Below, in pieces: positions 13,373 to 21,489 of a stretch of DNA of 64,000 nucleotides (the first letter of the stretch is position 1; each line of letters starts with the position of its first letter). A program made the position numbers and the translations under genes. Source of the DNA: a marine actinobacterium MedAcidi-G2B (GTDB taxonomy: Bacteria; Actinomycetota; Acidimicrobiia; Acidimicrobiales; MedAcidi-G1); the NCBI GenBank assembly GCA_000817115.1, contig JUEO01000003.1:1-64000 (forward strand), read 5' to 3'. The notes beneath the pieces are model-generated. The model searched no databases, was not told where the DNA came from, and saw nothing but the letters and a program-made list of their open reading frames with translations.

Positions 13373-14776
13373 CTAACCGACTGAACCTTCCATTTGGAGT
13401 TCAATTAGTCGGCTCCATTCAACAGCGTATTCCATAGGTAAAGTCTTGGTCACTGGCTCAATAAAACCATTAACTACTAAAGACATTGACTGTTCTTCAG
13501 TCAGCCCTCTACTCATTAAATAAAAGAGTTGATCATCCGCGACTTTTGAGACTGTTGCTTCATGTCCGATTACGGCATCTGAAGAACCAACTTCCATATA
13601 CGGATAGGTATCTGAGACGCTGTCATCGTCAAGTATCAGAGCATCGCATTGCACATGGCTCTTGCATCCATACGCATCTTCTTCAACTCGAACAAGTCCG
13701 CGATAACTTGATCGGCCTCCGTCTTTTGAGATCGATTTAGAAACTATTTTTGAAGTGGTCTCTGGTGCAGCATGTGTCATCTTCGCACCCGCATCTTGAT
13801 GTTGTCCTGCACCTGCGTAAGCGACAGAAAGAACTTCTCCTGAAGCTTTTGGTCCAGCCATCACTACCGCCGGATACTTCATGGTCAAGCGAGAACCTAT
13901 ATTCCCATCAATCCATTCCATATGGCCTTCTGCTTCAACCCGAGCACGTTTCGTCACCAAGTTGTAGACATTAGATGACCAATTTTGGATTGTTGTGTAG
14001 GTAACTCGAGCCGATTCTTTAACTATTATTTCAACCACTGCAGAATGTAGTGAGTCTGTGCTGTAGACCGGAGCAGAACAACCTTCGATGTAATGAACTT
14101 CAGAGCCCTCATCAGCAATAATGAGTGTTCTTTCAAATTGGCCCATGTTCTCTGCGTTGATACGGAAATAAGCTTGTAACGGCATTTCCACTTTCACACC
14201 TGGTGGAACATATATAAACGATCCCCCACTCCAAACAGCTGAATTTAAAGCTGAAAATTTATTGTCGTTTGGAGGTATCACTCTCCCGAAATAAGCTTTG
14301 ACTATCTCCGGGTGTTCCCTTAATGCTGTATCCATGTCACAAAAGATCACGCCTTGCTGTTCCAGATCTTCTCGGTTGCGGTGATACACAACCTCCGATT
14401 CATATTGGGCAGTAACACCAGCTAAGTATTTTCGTTCAGCTTCTGGTATTCCTAATTTTTCATATGTGTCTTTTATCGCGTCTGGGACATCATCCCAGTC
14501 TTCAGAAAGAGACTCTGTTGGTTTGATGTAGTAATAAATATCATCAAAATCGATTCCAGTCATGTCCCCGCCCCACCATGGCATAGGACGATCAAGAAAA
14601 CGTTGGTGAGATTTCAGACGAAAATCCCGCATCCATTCCGGTTCGCTTTTCATCCAAGAAATTTCTTGAATGAGTTTTTCATCTAAACCTTTTGTGGGCT
14701 TGTAGACGTAGTCTTCTTCGTCGCTCCAACCGAGCTTGTACTTACCAAGATCAACTCCAATATCTGCGCTACTCAC
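13373..14776 (-). CDS. sufB: Fe-S cluster assembly scaffold SufB
   Basis: SufB, with SufC and SufD, forms the scaffold on which Fe-S clusters are built. The 467-residue protein has the full family layout: an N-terminal segment ([20 protein letters not shown]), [20 protein letters not shown], the core beta-helix ([20 protein letters not shown]), and a C-terminal [14 protein letters not shown] block with the Cys pair CKSHVQC and GHEATVSKV. sufC, sufD and sufS are not adjacent, unlike the usual operon. Only the small Cys/Lys-rich gene follows. Confidence 0.94.
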
Positions 14777-14862
14777 TGCTAGATCATCTCCTTGATTTGG
14801 TTATTTTCCCTACATAGATAATACCAATATCTCGTCGTTGATCCCAATAACACATAAATATT

Positions 14863-15630
14863 TTAATCACTAGATAAATACTGTCGATCTAACCAACCGA
14901 GAAGTATTGCTATTGCTCGTGGATCATGACGTAGATGGTGACCCGCCCCACTAATCATTCTCAGATCACAACTTTGATGTGCGCCAGCTATAGCGCGTGA
15001 ATCTAAAGGAGGGACAATCTCATCGTCTGTTCCATGTACGAGCAGCAAGGGGTTTGGAGAGAATGCTTCAGCAGATTTTTCGGCAGATATTTTTGACAAA
15101 GATGATTTCCAATCATCAAAATCTTCCAAGGGAGATGATTCATTAATAAGTCCAGCATCACGTGCATGCAGTAGCAGTCTGCGTGGATTTTCAGCCCAGT
15201 CATTGAAATCTGCTGGAGTTGCTAATGCCGCTACTCCTTTAATTCGGTCATCATCTGAAGCTGCTGCCAAGGACAGAGCTCCACCTGTTCCAAAACCTAC
15301 AAGCCATATTGGTCCTACTTCTTCAAATGTTGAAAGATATGAAACAGCTGACTTCAAGTCTTCACGCCAACCATCAAGGCTGAAAAATCCTTCTGATCCC
15401 TCCATCCCGCGTAGATGAGGAACCATTGCAACCCATCCCATTTCTTGAGAAATTCTTTCAGCCAATTCTGGGAGCGTGCCTGGAGAGTTCGCTCCACCGG
15501 TTTCTCCGGTAGGAAACCCATGCGTGATAACTAGGCCTGGGCTTGTCTTTTCAGCGTCTTCAGGAAATAGAAGGTTAGCTTCTAGAGATAACCCTTCTGA
15601 AAGAAAATTATGTGTTGTCACTGGAATCAA
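14863..15630 (-). CDS. Alpha/beta hydrolase-fold protein with altered nucleophile elbow
   Basis: A 255-residue alpha/beta hydrolase-fold protein of the dienelactone-hydrolase/BAAT-like type. The fold is shown by VITHGFPTGE (oxyanion loop), WLVGFGTGGALSLAA (elbow), LLVHGTDDEIVPP (acid residue) and GAGHHLRHDP (catalytic His). The elbow reads G-F-G-T-G where G-x-S-x-G is expected, so the nucleophilic Ser is replaced by Gly. It may be non-catalytic or use another residue. Its start overlaps the end of the gamma-carbonic-anhydrase gene by four bases, making a three-gene operon with the flavin reductase. Confidence 0.85.
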   Translation of the reverse strand: MIPVTTHNFLSEGLSLEANLLFPEDAEKTSPGLVITHGFPTGETGGANSPGTLPELAERISQEMGWVAMVPHLRGMEGSEGFFSLDGWREDLKSAVSYLSTFEEVGPIWLVGFGTGGALSLAAASDDDRIKGVAALATPADFNDWAENPRRLLLHARDAGLINESSPLEDFDDWKSSLSKISAEKSAEAFSPNPLLLVHGTDDEIVPPLDSRAIAGAHQSCDLRMISGAGHHLRHDPRAIAILLGWLDRQYLSSD

Positions 15631-16145
15631 TCAATTCGTTTCATCTGTTCACGAAACTGTTTTCCACGTTCAACATAAATTTGCGCATTCATTAAATTAG
15701 CTTCTTCAGGAACCACTCCTTCTCGGACTGTTGCAGGAACCCCCAATGCCATTGAATGCGGCGGAACAATGGTTCCGTTACGCACCATTGCATTAGCACC
15801 AACTATTGATCCGTAACCAATTACAGCTTCATGAATCACGACAGCTCCTACTCCGACAAGTGCTTGGTCTTCTATAACGCATCCTTCAAGATGGCAAAGG
15901 TGTCCAAGAGTGACATCTTCACCAACAATTGTTGGAAGTTCTGCAGTGCAATGAAGTACTGCGTTGTCTTGAACTGAAGATCGAGCCCCTATTGAAATGA
16001 GAGAATCATCTCCTCTGATAACTGCGTTTGGCCAAACACTTGCTTCTGGTCCTATTTCTACATTTCCAATAATCACTGCTTCAGGATGAATATAAGCAGT
16101 TGGGTCAATTCGCGGAACAAGTTCACCGAGACTATATATGGGCAT
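15627..16145 (-). CDS. Gamma-carbonic-anhydrase-like hexapeptide-repeat protein
   Basis: A 172-residue left-handed beta-helix protein built from hexapeptide repeats (YIHPEAVIIGNVEIGPEASV, IVGEDVTLGHLCHLEGCVI, IVGANAMVRNG). Metal-ligand-like His are seen in VLHCT and GHLCHLEGC, as in the gamma-carbonic anhydrase/YrdA family. Whether this member hydrates CO2 is uncertain, since many YrdA-like proteins lack clear activity. Its ATG overlaps the end of the flavin reductase gene by one base. Confidence 0.88.
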   Translation of the reverse strand: MPIYSLGELVPRIDPTAYIHPEAVIIGNVEIGPEASVWPNAVIRGDDSLISIGARSSVQDNAVLHCTAELPTIVGEDVTLGHLCHLEGCVIEDQALVGVGAVVIHEAVIGYGSIVGANAMVRNGTIVPPHSMALGVPATVREGVVPEEANLMNAQIYVERGKQFREQMKRID

Positions 16146-16633
16146 TAGCTAGCTCCTTGAAATTGGCCATAGTTTCCTCCGAGAAAAACTAACGGCGAGC
16201 CAACATTGTTATATATAGCTTCCTGAACTAAACCAGAAACAAAGAAATGGTCCCCTGCGTCGGACACCTCATAAATTGAACAATCCATGTTGGCTAGACA
16301 AGAAGGAATCATTGGAGAGCCGGATGCCATTGGCTCCCATTCTGTTCCTTCCCAAGGGTCTCCTTCTTTCTGAAAAAAACCGTTCGAGAGATCCGCCTGT
16401 TCATCCGAAAGAACATTGACACCAAAAGAACCTGTTTTCTCTATTCTTTGCCATGTCTGACTGCCCGCGCCAATGAAGAATCCGACTAATGGAGGTTGCA
16501 TAGACACTGACGTAAAAGAACCAATTACTATCGCTAACGGTTCAGCTTCATCTATCCCAGTGACCAAAGTTACTCCAGTGGGATAACGGCCTAAAACTTT
16601 TCTGTAAAGATCTCCGTCAATTGTCATTTTCAA
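16145..16633 (-). CDS. Flavin reductase-like FMN-binding protein
   Basis: A 162-residue protein of the flavin reductase (HpaC/DszD-like) split-barrel family. The family start YRKVLGRYPTGVTLVT, the central GSFTSVSMQPPLVGFFIG and a C-terminal GGNYGQF are all present. Members reduce FMN or FAD with NAD(P)H, often for a partner monooxygenase. No monooxygenase is adjacent; the operon partners are the hexapeptide protein and the hydrolase. It is the first gene, with 129 bp to the divergent thioredoxin/UGSC operon. Confidence 0.9.
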   Translation of the reverse strand: MKMTIDGDLYRKVLGRYPTGVTLVTGIDEAEPLAIVIGSFTSVSMQPPLVGFFIGAGSQTWQRIEKTGSFGVNVLSDEQADLSNGFFQKEGDPWEGTEWEPMASGSPMIPSCLANMDCSIYEVSDAGDHFFVSGLVQEAIYNNVGSPLVFLGGNYGQFQGAS

Positions 16634-16732
16634 CCTTTAAGTAAACAACTATTCACTCTAAGGTTACAGAAATGGTTCTCAGGTCGCGATCAAGATCATG
16701 GACTAGAAGTCATAATTCAACACAACTTGCCT

Positions 16733-16752
16733 GTTACTAACTGGTAACTTAC
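16733..16752. promoter_or_regulatory. Second copy of the GTTAC-N6-GTAACTTAC motif
   Basis: GTTAC-taactg-GTAAC followed by TTAC lies 14-29 nt before the ATG at 16763. The arms, spacer length and trailing TTAC match the copy at 2198-2217. It overlaps the expected promoter region of the thioredoxin/UGSC operon, which suggests a repressor operator; TetR-type sites in actinobacteria can look like this. Inference only. Confidence 0.5.
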
Positions 16753-16762
16753 CATTCTAGTT

Positions 16763-18208
16763 ATGGCGAAACATGCAAATGGTTATGAGTTAACCGATGG
16801 CATTTCTGTTGTCGTCAATTCCGAATGCCCTACTTGCCAATTGACTTCAGATCTTTTAGTTGAACTTGGAACTAGCGGCCATGTGAGAATCTTTTCGCAA
16901 GACGATCCGTCTTTTCCTACTTCAGCCGAATGGGTTCGCGACGATAGTGAATTGTCTTTTAGTTGGCATAACGATGTTGAAGCTGTTCCCACTCTCATCC
17001 AAGTCGTCAACGGAAAAGAGGTTGAAAGATTAGTGGGGTGGAATAGGAAAGAATGGGAAAGGTTACTTGAAATAGAGAACCTCGCTCCGGGTCTTGTTGA
17101 CCATAAACCTGGTTGCGGTTCACTATCTGTGTCACCGGATCGAGTTGATGAGCTTGAAATAAAGTTTGGCGGAAGAACATTTATTTCTCGCCAAGTAGAA
17201 CTAGCTTCCCTTGAAGATGAAATGGAAGCAATGCATGACCGCGGTTGGAGCGATGGATTGCCTGTTGTTCCGCCTACTGAATCACGGGTAAACCGAATGC
17301 TCGCCGGAACGTCAAGAAACTCCGATGACATCGTTGCGATAATTCCACCAAATCTTGTGGAATGTTCGGTAGAAAAAGTAGCAATCAATGCCGTCATGGC
17401 TGGATGTCTTCCTGAGTATCTTCCCGTTGTGATTGCCTGCCTTGAAGCGATTTGTACCGATGAGTTTAATATGCATGGAGTTCTGGCTACCACTATGGGT
17501 GTAGGTCCTATTTTTGTTGTTAGTGGGCCCATAACTGAACGCTTGGGTATGAATTCTGGTATCAACGTTCTTGGACATGGGAATCGTGCTAACTCCACTA
17601 TTGGTAGAGCTGTTCAACTTGTTTTAAAGAACGTGGGTGGTGGGGCACCTGGAGGGATTGACCGAGCAACTCTTGGCCATATGGGAAAGCAGGGTTTCTG
17701 TTTCGCGGAAGCTCCTTCGCCTTGGGAGAATTTAGCTGAAGGTTTCGGATTCTCTTCAGAGCAAAACACGGTTACTGCTTTCACAGGAGAAGGCCCACGT
17801 ATTCTCGTTGATCAGAAAAGCAGAAGCCCAGAGTCATTAACGCGATCTTTGGCTGATGGGTTGAAGTCAACGATTTCCACACGAATGGTTTTAGGCATGG
17901 ACGCTATGTTGGTTGTCTCTCCAGAACATCTCAGCCGATTTACTGACGCAGGTTGGAGTCGTTCACAGTTCATCGAAAAACTAACTGAACTCCTGATGAT
18001 CGATAGTGATGAAATAATTGAAGGCGCTGGAGGGATTGAAGATGGTATTCCGTCAACTTTTGGAGGAAATCAATTACCTAAATTTCGCCCTGGCGGCCTC
18101 TTAGTAGTTCATGCTGGTGGACCTGCAGGGCTCTTTTCAGCCATAATTGGTGGGTGGTTAAATGGAACTAAGGGAAGTGACCCAGTTACAAAGGAGATAA
18201 CCCTATGA
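16763..18208 (+). CDS. Thioredoxin-domain protein, partner of the UGSC selenoprotein
   Basis: A 481-residue two-part protein. Residues about 12-115 look like a thioredoxin fold with a CPTC redox motif (NSECPTCQLTSDLL) and the cis-Pro region VEAVPTLIQV. A short link (PGCGSL) leads to about 330 residues containing GWSDGLPVVPPT, AIIPPNLVECSVEKVA, a Gly-rich stretch (NVGGGAPGGIDRATLG) and a closing LVVHAGGPAGLFSAIIGGW. I know this second part as the large partner of UGSC-motif proteins, with no established activity. It ends ATGA, overlapping the UGSC gene start by four bases, so the two are co-translated and likely act together. A redox exchange between CPTC and the Sec/Cys site of the partner is an inference. 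Confidence 0.8.
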   Translation: MAKHANGYELTDGISVVVNSECPTCQLTSDLLVELGTSGHVRIFSQDDPSFPTSAEWVRDDSELSFSWHNDVEAVPTLIQVVNGKEVERLVGWNRKEWERLLEIENLAPGLVDHKPGCGSLSVSPDRVDELEIKFGGRTFISRQVELASLEDEMEAMHDRGWSDGLPVVPPTESRVNRMLAGTSRNSDDIVAIIPPNLVECSVEKVAINAVMAGCLPEYLPVVIACLEAICTDEFNMHGVLATTMGVGPIFVVSGPITERLGMNSGINVLGHGNRANSTIGRAVQLVLKNVGGGAPGGIDRATLGHMGKQGFCFAEAPSPWENLAEGFGFSSEQNTVTAFTGEGPRILVDQKSRSPESLTRSLADGLKSTISTRMVLGMDAMLVVSPEHLSRFTDAGWSRSQFIEKLTELLMIDSDEIIEGAGGIEDGIPSTFGGNQLPKFRPGGLLVVHAGGPAGLFSAIIGGWLNGTKGSDPVTKEITL

Positions 18209-18726
18209 ATCAAACACTGTCTGTACTTGATCCCACGTCCGAGGACCGTTCTACGGAAATCCAGTTAAGTGAACGAATTAAAAGTATTGAAGGTTCAACA
18301 ATAGGATTGCTTGATATCGCAAAACCAAGAGGCGATATTTTTCTTAATCAATTAGAAAAAAGACTCACTGAGCATGGGGCGACTGTTCTTCGATTTATGA
18401 AACCAACTTTTACTAAACCTGCACCCGTAGATCTTCGTTATGAAATTTCTAGTAAATGTGATGCGGTTATTGAAGCTCTCGCTGATTGAGGTTCCTGTAC
18501 GACATGCAGTGTGCATGACATAAGTAACTTAGAAAAAGATGGTCTCCCAGGGGTATTTGTGGCCTCCTTACCTTTTATTGATGCCGCAGAGACTCAATCA
18601 AAAGCGGTTGGAATTAATGTGTCTCGTATTTTTGTTGACCACCCGATACAAGACAGAACTGATGTTGAAATGATTGAACTTGCTGATTCTGCTTTTGATG
18701 ACCTTGTTAAGGCTTTAACCCAATAA
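18205..18726 (+). CDS. UGSC-family selenoprotein (in-frame TGA = selenocysteine)
   Basis: The track shows two ORFs (18205-18489 and 18511-18726) that are one gene. Both are in the same frame, interrupted only by TGA at 18487-18489. Read as Sec the junction is EALAD-U-GSCTTC, which is exactly the UGSC motif that names this family; the product is 173 residues with Sec95, Cys98 and Cys101. The N-terminal half resembles a Rossmann-like segment (IGLLDIAKPRGDIFLNQLEKR) and the second half continues VFVASLPFIDAA...IFVDHPIQDRT. A strong AAGGAG lies 8 nt before the ATG. A perfect hairpin after the TGA could be the SECIS. The family's biochemical role is unknown to me; its tight coupling to a thioredoxin-domain partner suggests redox chemistry. 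Confidence 0.88.
18503..18517 (+). promoter_or_regulatory. Candidate bacterial SECIS hairpin of the UGSC gene
   Basis: CATGCA and TGCATG form a perfect 6-bp stem with a GTG loop starting 20 nt after the TGA. Bacterial SECIS elements lie just inside the coding region after the UGA and usually have a G in the first two loop positions, which fits. The stem is short, so this needs a structure-aware search. Confidence 0.55.
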
Positions 18727-18728
18727 TT

Positions 18729-19604
18729 TCAAATTTGTGGCAAAGACAAAGTATCACCCTTAGAGGTAGCTAAACCATCAGAAATAACAGTAGAAGCAAC
18801 TCTCTCTGCCCTTTCTGGATCTAACGGCCATCCCATGACTTCTGCTAATTCGCTTTTTTTAATTGGGTTTTTTCTTAAAGCGGCTACTAATTTTCCACGC
18901 CCTTGACGATCTGATCCTTCAAATCTGGATTGAGTCCCACTTACTCCCGCTGATCCTTTAGCTGGATCAACTCCAATGCCTTGCCATGCACAAGAACTGT
19001 ATATCGGGCATTCTTCGCATTTTGGATTTTTAGAGCGGCAAACCATAGAACCAAAATCAAGTACTGCTTGATTCCAAGCCCAACCCTCTCCTAATGGAAC
19101 AGAACGATCAGCTAGTTCTTGGGCTTCTGCAGGTTTCAAACGGCGCCCCATCCACCTTGCGAGAACTCTTCCTACATTTGTATCTACGACCGCCGAGTCT
19201 TGTTCGTATGCAAAAGCGAGAATCGCTCGAGCCGTGTATGGCCCTATACCAGGAAGTAATAAAAGCTCGTCAAGCTCTAATGGAACTTCCCCTCCATGAT
19301 TATCTTTTATAGATTTTGCAGCCTGATGCAGCAGCACCGCTCTACGATTAAAACCCATTCCTTCCCATTGTTTTACCACTTCAGAAGTTGGCGCCACAGC
19401 ACAACTTATTACTGTTGGAAATTCTTCCAGAAATGCCGGCCACTTCGAAAGAACTCGATCTATTTGAGTTTGTTGAAGCATCACTTCAGCAACTAATACA
19501 AACCAAGGGTTTCGTGTTCTTCTCCACGGCAAGTCACGTAAGTGTTCTGCGCCCCATGCCAGAATATCGATGGGAAGAATTCGTGTAAGTTCCTTGGTGT
19601 TCAC
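18729..19604 (-). CDS. mutY: A/G-specific adenine DNA glycosylase MutY
   Basis: MutY removes adenine mispaired with 8-oxoguanine. The 291-residue protein has LPWRRTRNPWFVLVAEVMLQQT with the catalytic Glu, the helix-hairpin-helix LLLLPGIGPYTARAI with the catalytic Asp in VVDTNVGRVLARW, and a [4Fe-4S] loop (CRSKNPKCEECPIYSSC). The C-terminal NUDIX-like 8-oxoG recognition domain of E. coli MutY is absent; the protein ends instead with a small winged-helix-like tail (ALRKNPIKKSELAEVMGWP). The short form is common in actinobacteria. Its stop is two bases from the end of the convergent UGSC gene. Confidence 0.92.
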   Translation of the reverse strand: MNTKELTRILPIDILAWGAEHLRDLPWRRTRNPWFVLVAEVMLQQTQIDRVLSKWPAFLEEFPTVISCAVAPTSEVVKQWEGMGFNRRAVLLHQAAKSIKDNHGGEVPLELDELLLLPGIGPYTARAILAFAYEQDSAVVDTNVGRVLARWMGRRLKPAEAQELADRSVPLGEGWAWNQAVLDFGSMVCRSKNPKCEECPIYSSCAWQGIGVDPAKGSAGVSGTQSRFEGSDRQGRGKLVAALRKNPIKKSELAEVMGWPLDPERAERVASTVISDGLATSKGDTLSLPQI

Positions 19605-19683
19605 AGTATTGACAGTAGTAGGTCACAAAGAACATCTTCCATATGTCGTCAGAATACTGATTCACTTGCTAGCGTCACCACTT

Positions 19684-20175
19684 GTGGCAACTAATCCTGA
19701 CCTCAACATACAAATCCATCCAGTTTCGGGCGACCCAAGACCGTTAAAAGAATTTTTGACAAACTTCCCTCTTGCTGTTGTAGTACTAGATCCATACACC
19801 CACGAAAGTTCTTGGATTCTAAATACGGCCCGACGTGTTCTTTCGAATTTTCGAGGAGCAGATGTGAGAGTTGCTTATTTAGTTACGGGAACAGATTCTG
19901 AAGGCGCTCAAAAATTTCTTGGTCCGTTAGCAGAGGAAATTTTTGCTTTGGCAGATCCTGAGCGGACTCTGGTTCGATCTCTTGAATTATCCAATGTTCC
20001 AGCCTTCGTTGTCTTAAAACAGGATGGTTCAGTTCTAGATTCAGCAGAAAATTGGGATCCTGAATCTTGGCGAAGAGTGGCTCAGGAGCTATCTGACTTG
20101 TCTTCTTGGTCGCGACCCGAGTTACCCGGTGAAGGTGATCCTGCTCCATATGCTGGAACCCCTTCTCTTGGGTAA
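19684..20175 (+). CDS. Thioredoxin-like domain protein without CxxC
   Basis: The 163-residue reading begins at GTG 19684 (ATNPDLNIQIHPVSGDPRP). The track start at 19570 lies inside the divergent mutY gene and adds residues of no clear merit. Earlier GTG (19597) and TTG (19666) starts cannot be excluded. The body has a thioredoxin-like alternation (FPLAVVVLDPYTHESSW, VRVAYLVTGTD, LSNVPAFVVLKQDGSVL with a cis-Pro-like Pro) and ends with a WSRPELPGEGDPAPYAG tail that I associate with actinobacterial proteins of this type. No redox Cys pair is present, so it probably has a binding or structural role. It lies 18 nt before the hydroxyacid dehydrogenase gene. Confidence 0.7.
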   Translation: MATNPDLNIQIHPVSGDPRPLKEFLTNFPLAVVVLDPYTHESSWILNTARRVLSNFRGADVRVAYLVTGTDSEGAQKFLGPLAEEIFALADPERTLVRSLELSNVPAFVVLKQDGSVLDSAENWDPESWRRVAQELSDLSSWSRPELPGEGDPAPYAGTPSLG

Positions 20176-20193
20176 ATTTTTCTTGGTGTTCTC

Positions 20194-21114
20194 TTGACTC
20201 GTTCTGTCGCAGTAGCTCCTTCTACTCGACCGGAGATGTTTGATGTCTTGTGTAAATCTGTACAAGATGCTGGAGCTAATCTCTGCACAGTTGAAGATGC
20301 TGAGGGATTGATTTGGGCTGACCCCTCTAAAGCTAATTTTTTTCCAGAAATTTCTGAGAGTGCTCCGAATCTTAAATGGATTCAGCTTCCTTATGCCGGG
20401 ATAGAACCGTTTGTCCCTTATCTTGACGATAAATGGACTTGGACATGCGGTAAAGGCATTTATGCACGCGAAGTTGCCGAAACCGCACTTACTTTATCTC
20501 TAGGAGGCTTTAAAAATCTTCATGGCTACTCCAGAGCGACTTCTTGGGGTGAACCGATCGGTCGGGTTCTTGGCGACTCGCGAGTTTGCATACTTGGTGC
20601 AGGTGGAATCACTCAATGCCTACTCCCCCTTCTTAACCCCTTTGGATGTGACATCACAGTTGTTCGACGACGTTCTGAATCCCTAGAGGGGGCGAACCGA
20701 ACAATAACGACTTCTCGCCTCTTTGAAATTCTTCCACAAACCGATCTTCTGATTCTCGCCCTTTCGCTTACCAAAGAAACATATGGAATCATCAATAAGG
20801 AAGTTCTTTCTGCTCTTCCAAATCATGCTTGGATAGTAAATGTTGCACGCGGAGGACATATTGTCACCGATGATCTTGTGGAATCTCTCCAACAAGGAAC
20901 TATTGGTGGAGCAGCTCTAGATGTAACAACTCCTGAGCCTCTCCCGGATGATCATCCGCTCTGGAGAGAACCGAACTGTCTTATCACCCCCCATATTGGA
21001 AACACTCCGGAGATGGGTCTAAGAGTTCTTGGACCATTCATTTCTGAAAACGTTAAGCGCTTCTGCAGTAACGAAGAGCTACTTGGTCTTGTAGACGTAA
21101 CCCAGGGATATTAA
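20194..21114 (+). CDS. D-isomer-specific 2-hydroxyacid dehydrogenase family protein
   Basis: A 306-residue NAD(P)-dependent dehydrogenase starting at TTG. The Rossmann motif is VCILGAGGITQCLLPLL. The active-site Arg is in NVARGGHIV, the Glu in TTPEPLPDDHPLW and the His in LITPHIGN, so the catalytic set is complete. A Pro/Trp-rich catalytic domain (LKWIQLPYAGIEPF) precedes it. Substrate cannot be told from sequence; glyoxylate/hydroxypyruvate or phosphoglycerate-like acids are typical. It lies between the thioredoxin-like and MauE-like genes, with 3 bp to the latter, so the three look like an operon. Confidence 0.9.
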   Translation: MTRSVAVAPSTRPEMFDVLCKSVQDAGANLCTVEDAEGLIWADPSKANFFPEISESAPNLKWIQLPYAGIEPFVPYLDDKWTWTCGKGIYAREVAETALTLSLGGFKNLHGYSRATSWGEPIGRVLGDSRVCILGAGGITQCLLPLLNPFGCDITVVRRRSESLEGANRTITTSRLFEILPQTDLLILALSLTKETYGIINKEVLSALPNHAWIVNVARGGHIVTDDLVESLQQGTIGGAALDVTTPEPLPDDHPLWREPNCLITPHIGNTPEMGLRVLGPFISENVKRFCSNEELLGLVDVTQGY

Positions 21115-21117
21115 GAA

Positions 21118-21489
21118 ATGGCAAATTTTGCTGGCTACATTCTTGGTGGTGTTTTCCTCATTGCTGGGATGGCCAAACTACGTTCCCCCTTAGACACTCG
21201 TCGTTCCCTACGTGACCTTGGTTTTCCTTTTCCTAAAGAAACAAGCATTGTCCTTCCTCTTGTTGAACTTTTAACCTCTGCTCTTTTATTCATTGACCCT
21301 GCTACTGGCGGACCATGTGCCGTGGCGCTACTGGTTGCCTTTACTGTCTTGATTTCCAGTCGCCTTGCCGCAGGAAATAAAAGCGGATGTGGTTGTTTTG
21401 GGGCTTGGTCCACCCGCCCCCTGTCTTATAAAGACATTGTCCGAAATGTTATTTTTATTATTCTTGGTGCAATAGCAACGCTCGGATGA
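21118..21489 (+). CDS. MauE/DoxX-like small membrane protein
   Basis: A 123-residue protein with four predicted membrane segments: FAGYILGGVFLIAGMAKL, SIVLPLVELLTSALLFI, AVALLVAFTVLISSRLA and IVRNVIFIILGAIATLG. A GCGCFG motif lies in the loop before the last helix. This is the layout of MauE/DoxX-like redox-associated membrane proteins, some of which help disulfide formation in exported proteins. The upstream thioredoxin-like gene fits that theme, though it lacks a CxxC. Confidence 0.82.
   Translation: MANFAGYILGGVFLIAGMAKLRSPLDTRRSLRDLGFPFPKETSIVLPLVELLTSALLFIDPATGGPCAVALLVAFTVLISSRLAAGNKSGCGCFGAWSTRPLSYKDIVRNVIFIILGAIATLG

Follow-up and report, generated by a model that had tools for sequence, protein, structure and literature searches.

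The window, a stretch of 64,000 nucleotides from the marine actinobacterium MedAcidi-G2B, carries two overlapping genes on its forward strand. The downstream gene encodes a member of the UGSC family, and the upstream gene is referred to here as its partner. The features of the pair are as follows.

16763..18208, forward strand: partner gene, encoding 481 aa with a thioredoxin-like domain, a linker and a domain of around 340 aa
16826..16837, forward strand: CPTC redox motif (Cys22, Cys25) of the partner thioredoxin domain
17114..17116, forward strand: TGC codon for Cys118 in the KPG-C-GSL linker; 41 genomes belonging to the same family have TGA (Sec) here, as does the betaproteobacterial locus L131
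17252..17278, forward strand: DGLPVVPPT motif, signature of the partner C-terminal domain
18191..18196, forward strand: AAGGAG ribosome-binding site of the UGSC gene, read in the window
18205..18208, forward strand: ATGA start/stop overlap of the UGSC gene with the partner gene, read in the window
18205..18726, forward strand: UGSC-family selenoprotein gene, encoding 173 aa with Sec at residue 95; ATG at 18205, TAA at 18724-18726
18487..18489, forward strand: TGA for Sec95 in the U-G-S-C-T-T-C motif; TGA is kept in relatives, with TAG and a CUA tRNA-Sec in Geodermatophilaceae
18501..18519, forward strand: bacterial SECIS-like apical stem-loop, 18501-18507 paired with 18513-18519, with one A.A mismatch in the window

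The first-pass annotation had recognised that two open reading frames at this locus form a single frame broken only by the TGA at 18487-18489, and its coordinates were exact; the AAGGAG site and ATGA overlap that it described are likewise present. Reading through the TGA gives a protein of 173 residues with the local context ...EALAD-U95-GSCTTC.... When a family search was performed with the TGA read as U, as that annotation had advised, the full-length protein scored above the cut-off for both NF041046 (145.7 bits, cut-off 125) and PF24696 (128.5 bits, cut-off 25). Both profiles align on either side of the TGA, in agreement with the earlier claim that family-like sequence runs on to the TAA. 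The U-G-S-C motif had been said to fall at the expected place, and in an alignment with 65 relatives the U95-G-S-C of the window does match the family position of [U/C]-G-S-C. The alignment also shows that U95, C98, C101, H104, D105 and H146 are conserved in UGSC proteins. The family itself has been known since 2008 and is curated in both Pfam and NCBIfam; the window protein is a further member, alike throughout and with the same TGA-encoded motif, and we see no difference in the protein itself. The name ‘UGSC-containing protein’ comes from the GOS 2008 paper (PMC2398784).

Selenocysteine decoding of the UGSC gene

A profile search found UGSC in 70 of 100 related genomes. Among the matches listed, all but four contain exactly one TGA, the exceptions being two Cys forms (G066 and G059) and two fragments that begin past the motif. 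Three separately assembled genomes of the same genus (L054, L056 and L058) share the TGA, which supports the first-pass reading that no Cys or other sense codon stands in the motif. A survey of 80 more loci spanning several phyla shows TGA at this codon in every gene copy that covers the motif, apart from those of Blastococcus massiliensis and Geodermatophilus obscurus, which have TAG at the Sec codon. The anticodon of tRNA-Sec is CUA in both of these genomes; Pseudonocardia bannensis has TGA in its UGSC gene and a UCA anticodon. UAG-encoded Sec in UGSC proteins of the Geodermatophilaceae group was reported earlier (PMC5330540).

A conserved stem of seven pairs follows the TGA; taking the T of that codon as base 1, the stem starts at base 15. 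In an alignment of 63 sequences, 95.5% of the stem cells are paired, the column pair 18/30 occurs as G-C, G-U or A-U, and nine double changes were observed compared to 3.4 in shuffles, with none of 500 shuffles reaching as high a count. Taken by itself, the window sequence has a folding energy that does not exceed that of shuffles, and the support for a SECIS element comes from covariation rather than from energy. The arrangement expected of a bacterial selenoprotein gene, an in-frame UGA and then a SECIS hairpin, is found here by way of this conserved, covarying stem.

An alternative reading is that the TGA is a true stop, leaving a pseudogene or two separate small proteins. It draws on the window's own draft genome (G000, a MAG of 1.44 Mb that is 85% complete), where selA, selB and selC, encoding tRNA-Sec, were not found; the tRNA-Sec-like matches in it turned out to be other tRNAs. 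The first-pass annotation had considered that the lack of selB, selC and selD would speak against selenocysteine, and this lack is seen for selB and selC, and also selA, but not for selD, which is present in its Sec form. The missing genes do occur in sister genomes: selA and selB are present in seven of seven same-genus genomes and tRNA-Sec in six of seven. They lie within one 20 kb stretch in the sister genome G001, and the counterpart of this stretch is missing from the window's genome, save two short diverged matches elsewhere. Because the whole block of approximately 20 kb is absent, we attribute the missing selA, selB and selC to a gap in the draft and not to gene loss.

The same genome encodes two more TGA selenoproteins. 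Its SelD (L053:1501-2421 (+), equivalent to G000:C2:29031-29951) has an in-frame TGA at the catalytic position (GAGUGCK), and a PrdB/GrdB-like protein of 393 aa on contig C28 (L171:766-1944 (-)) has an in-frame TGA in the sequence VDVVLLTPVUPLCTRT; the latter scores below the PrdB cut-off and is clearly related. These two proteins argue against a true stop, as do the placement of the absent sel genes in the absent block, the TAG swap in Geodermatophilaceae, and the occurrence of TGA at one position over many phyla with the downstream part under strong protein constraint. A true stop is thus extremely improbable. Taken together, the conserved TGA, the hairpin, the TAG/CUA swap, the Sec-containing SelD, the PrdB-like selenoprotein and the Sec-decoding genes found beside the pair in other lineages uphold the reading of the window gene as a real UGSC-family selenoprotein, with UGA read through as Sec, and we consider this almost certain. 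The original identification is borne out by the family match, the conserved TGA, the covarying hairpin and the codon-anticodon swap.

The partner gene, its Cys/Sec site and the gene neighbourhood

The partner was found in 68 of the 100 relatives by profile search, almost exactly the set of UGSC-bearing genomes. UGSC stands without it in just two of them, G065, which has a short partner fragment, and G072, an 80% complete genome. At two loci, UGSC and the partner domain are joined in a single reading frame; one (L072:1955-3400 (-)) reads CUGSC with a TGA, and the other (L067:4399-6258 (-)) is a Cys form. We also see UGSC near the partner on the opposite strand in MAGs labelled as Acidobacteria or Holophagales (L130, L133 and L136). 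From the co-occurrence and the fusions it is very probable that UGSC and its upstream partner form one two-subunit redox enzyme, in which the two proteins would be in contact.

The N-terminal domain of the partner is a thioredoxin by sequence in 61 of 73 members, and by fold as well in structure comparisons, and there is a second partner subfamily that lacks this domain. Alignment shows conservation of Cys22 and Cys25 (the CPTC pair), Cys/Sec118 and Cys215. No Pfam or NCBIfam family covers the domain of approximately 340 residues in the 73 members searched. Class I fumarate hydratases are among the weak Foldseek matches, over about 400 columns, and Cys215 and Cys313, both conserved, might ligate a cluster, so that the C-terminal domain might be hydro-lyase-like, with UGSC giving a metal or redox ligand for an elimination or dehydration rather than a reductive cleavage. 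The Foldseek probability is only about 0.5 and the TM-score about 0.22, none of the 73 partner proteins has a sequence match to any fumarase family, and the three-Cys cluster set is still putative; we judge a hydro-lyase to be improbable.

Figure S1A of the GOS 2008 paper depicts a domain, Unknown_1, fused to UGSC. As fused UGSC-partner genes exist (L067 and L072), Unknown_1 is probably the partner C-terminal domain; the accessible text of that paper speaks of neither thioredoxin-fused nor Sec-containing forms. An identity of the partner with the GOS_C family from the same work seems unlikely, since GOS_C has a UxxC motif where the partner has U-G-S-L. Published accounts of UGSC, in their accessible portions, describe neither a Sec site in a partner nor a link to GrdB.

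The Sec site concerns residue 118. One in-frame TGA splits the partner in 41 of the 46 partner-bearing genomes of the window genome's family, and in the loci read it stands exactly at the Cys118 codon (KPGUGSL). The Cys118 form occurs in the window's own branch (G000, G001, G005 and G007), and the partner of G021 is a fragment. Outside this family, a betaproteobacterial partner (L131:5011-6438) has TGA at the same site (RPGUGSLSLEP), and its downstream UGSC gene also has TGA; other members read have Cys at 118. On a tree, the Cys/Sec118 label has to change three times, with support from starred branches: Sec was either gained three times, or gained once, reverted to Cys in the window's branch and gained separately in L131. 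The hairpin after the partner TGA is not above shuffles. All 73 partner proteins have either Cys or Sec at residue 118, and the two are exchanged in two lineages, indicating that this residue is redox-active. The partner is thus predicted, from its sequence, to be a selenoprotein in most close relatives of the window genome, and, as the TGA splits it into two open reading frames in 41 of them, gene callers likely misannotate it.

Genes for selenocysteine decoding are found beside the pair in several loci. Four loci of Actinomycetota (L087, L088, L103 and L106) have selA, selB and tRNA-Sec upstream, with selD too in two. Among Proteobacteria, selA and selB lie downstream in L116, L118, L127, L135 and L145, with tRNA-Sec in L118 and L135, and selB and tRNA-Sec lie near the pair in L114. 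A compact cassette of selA, selB, tRNA-Sec and partner-UGSC is seen in L103, L106, L118 and L135, with selD in L103 and L106. The pair therefore adjoins selA-selB in two phyla, in differing gene orders.

Around the pair in the window itself (13373-21489) are a SufB-like gene (13373-14776, assigned by eye) and genes for a hexapeptide protein, a flavin reductase, a MutY-like protein, a 2-hydroxyacid dehydrogenase and a MauE-like protein. This gene order is kept mainly within the family of the window genome. The MutY, 2-hydroxyacid dehydrogenase, MauE and flavin reductase genes were dropped as functional clues, because their linkage is kept in that family and a few close relatives and not across phyla. 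Near the second partner subfamily are open reading frames whose N-termini resemble, by eye, thiolase, acyl-CoA dehydrogenase, CoA-transferase, AMP-ligase and hydantoinase, and one relative (G059) has ten matches to UGSC and nine to the partner within its genome. Together, the CoA-type neighbours and the ten UGSC copies hint at catabolism with several substrates, and the many paralogues and such catabolic neighbours give a hint that these may be small carboxylates.

Fold of UGSC and its relation to GrdB

An AlphaFold2 model of UGSC (pLDDT 92.9) has alternating strands and helices in a Rossmann-like arrangement, and Sec95 sits where helix 96-111 begins. We see no thioredoxin fold in this model, and UGSC does not match Pfam thioredoxin. 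Sequence searches of the PDB with UGSC gave no match, Foldseek found nothing close to the UGSC model (best TM-score about 0.5), and a phmmer search of the PDB with a GrdB sequence found no GrdB structure.

The fold bears on the view that UGSC is a thiol peroxidase or disulfide reductase, wherein Sec95 reduces a peroxide or a protein disulfide and is then restored by the partner thioredoxin domain. Published work takes this view by default: the GOS 2008 paper (PMC2398784) proposed that UGSC is Trx-like and a 2026 review places it among Trx-like proteins. The UxxC motif and the thioredoxin-fused partner agree with such a role. The Rossmann-like model does not, an accompanying conserved domain of around 340 aa is unusual for a peroxidase, and the presence of up to ten copies per genome suggests substrate diversity. 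On balance we find a peroxidase or disulfide reductase doubtful.

Sequence profiles point instead towards GrdB. Of 66 UGSC proteins, 52 match TIGR01917 (glycine reductase selenoprotein B; best 2.5e-6), and other GrdB-type models are also matched (GrdF by 51, TIGR01918 by 29 and GrdH by 23). GrdB and its relatives form the Sec subunit of glycine, sarcosine, betaine and D-proline reductases. The window protein aligns over residues 81-150 with positions 333-397 of the GrdB model (E 0.0011), at 17.9 bits against a family cut-off of 602 and without the full-length architecture. Comparison of a broad UGSC profile with GrdB/PrdB-like proteins gave an E of 1.3e-7 and a probability of 94%, with Sec aligned on Sec and a later HP motif on HP. 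The real score of 50.8 compares to at most 23.8 for 100 column shuffles and 12.4 for a reversed profile. A first comparison of UGSC with PrdB-like proteins alone was not significant, and significance was reached only with the broader UGSC set (112 sequences) and true GrdB sequences; the GrdB rows alone gave an E of 1.8e-4 against the UGSC profile. A Rossmann dehydrogenase control scored too (E 3.5e-4, 37%), so part of the GrdB signal reflects a shared fold. The GrdB signal is nevertheless clearly above this control.

These sequence comparisons lead us to treat UGSC as distantly homologous to the Sec domain of GrdB and not as a member of GrdB. It shares with GrdB and its relatives (TIGR01917, TIGR01918, GrdF, GrdH and PrdB TIGR04483) a homologous C-terminal Sec region, a UxxCxxC-type motif and the downstream HP, but it consists of the Sec domain alone and scores far below the GrdB cut-offs. 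UGSC is placed outside the GrdB family because it fails the cut-offs and the length, and because its partner is not GrdE or PrdA. None of the 73 partner members matches the GrdE/PrdA-type pyruvoyl proprotein families; unlike those proteins, to which it is unrelated by sequence, the partner bears its own thioredoxin domain. Among the literature naming both UGSC and GrdB, in its accessible parts, no paper was found that states the link. GrdB proteins were also observed in relatives, namely one of 437 aa with an in-frame TGA (STUGTGTRSG) in G019 (L164:1225-2535 (-)) and a second in G023 (L162).

Binding of mercury, arsenic or a similar metal or metalloid by Sec95, for detoxification, was also considered, as a 2026 review notes that metal binding is predicted for some selenoproteins. 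No resistance genes were seen to recur beside the pair in the neighbourhood clusters, most of them read by eye, and the GrdB homology points elsewhere, making a detoxification role very improbable.

A possible reaction for the UGSC-partner enzyme

By analogy with GrdB, the UGSC-partner enzyme may work like component B of the glycine, sarcosine and betaine reductases, recharged by thioredoxin, although we put this forward tentatively. It builds on family membership across the TGA, the pairing of the two genes, the homology to the GrdB domain, the predicted fold and the conserved residues, all presented here; the reaction and the electron path would then be as follows. A substrate would be held with the partner C-terminal domain, and the Sec95 selenolate would attack its carbon and cleave a C-X bond, as in component B. 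The selenium product would be resolved by Cys98 or Cys101 of the U-G-S-C-x-x-C motif, and the resulting selenenyl-sulfide could be re-reduced via Cys/Sec118 of the partner and the CPTC pair of its thioredoxin domain.

Counting against component-B chemistry is the lifestyle of the hosts: the glycine-reductase enzymes are known from anaerobic organisms, and many bacteria with the pair, judged from their record names, look like aerobic aquatic ones. Overall, we lean towards the complete explanation, a UGSC selenoprotein working with its partner in one enzyme of component-B-like chemistry. With more reserve, we speculate that UGSC and its partner might constitute a hitherto undescribed kind of reductase system, the counterpart of component B in two genes and with a fused thioredoxin, that would be widespread in aquatic Actinomycetota and Proteobacteria, with paralogues for different substrates, a relay with a Cys/Sec-switching second site, and frequent carriage alongside Sec-decoding genes.

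The first-pass annotation had missed that UGSC is constantly accompanied by the upstream gene, which has a Sec form in relatives, and that the family is related to GrdB. The analysis adds to the known UGSC family a partner with a Cys/Sec switch, a link to GrdB and a neighbourhood of sel genes; together these make the function of UGSC testable. In short, with a link to GrdB and a fixed, thioredoxin-fused partner that has a Sec site of its own, UGSC changes from a named family into a testable enzyme.
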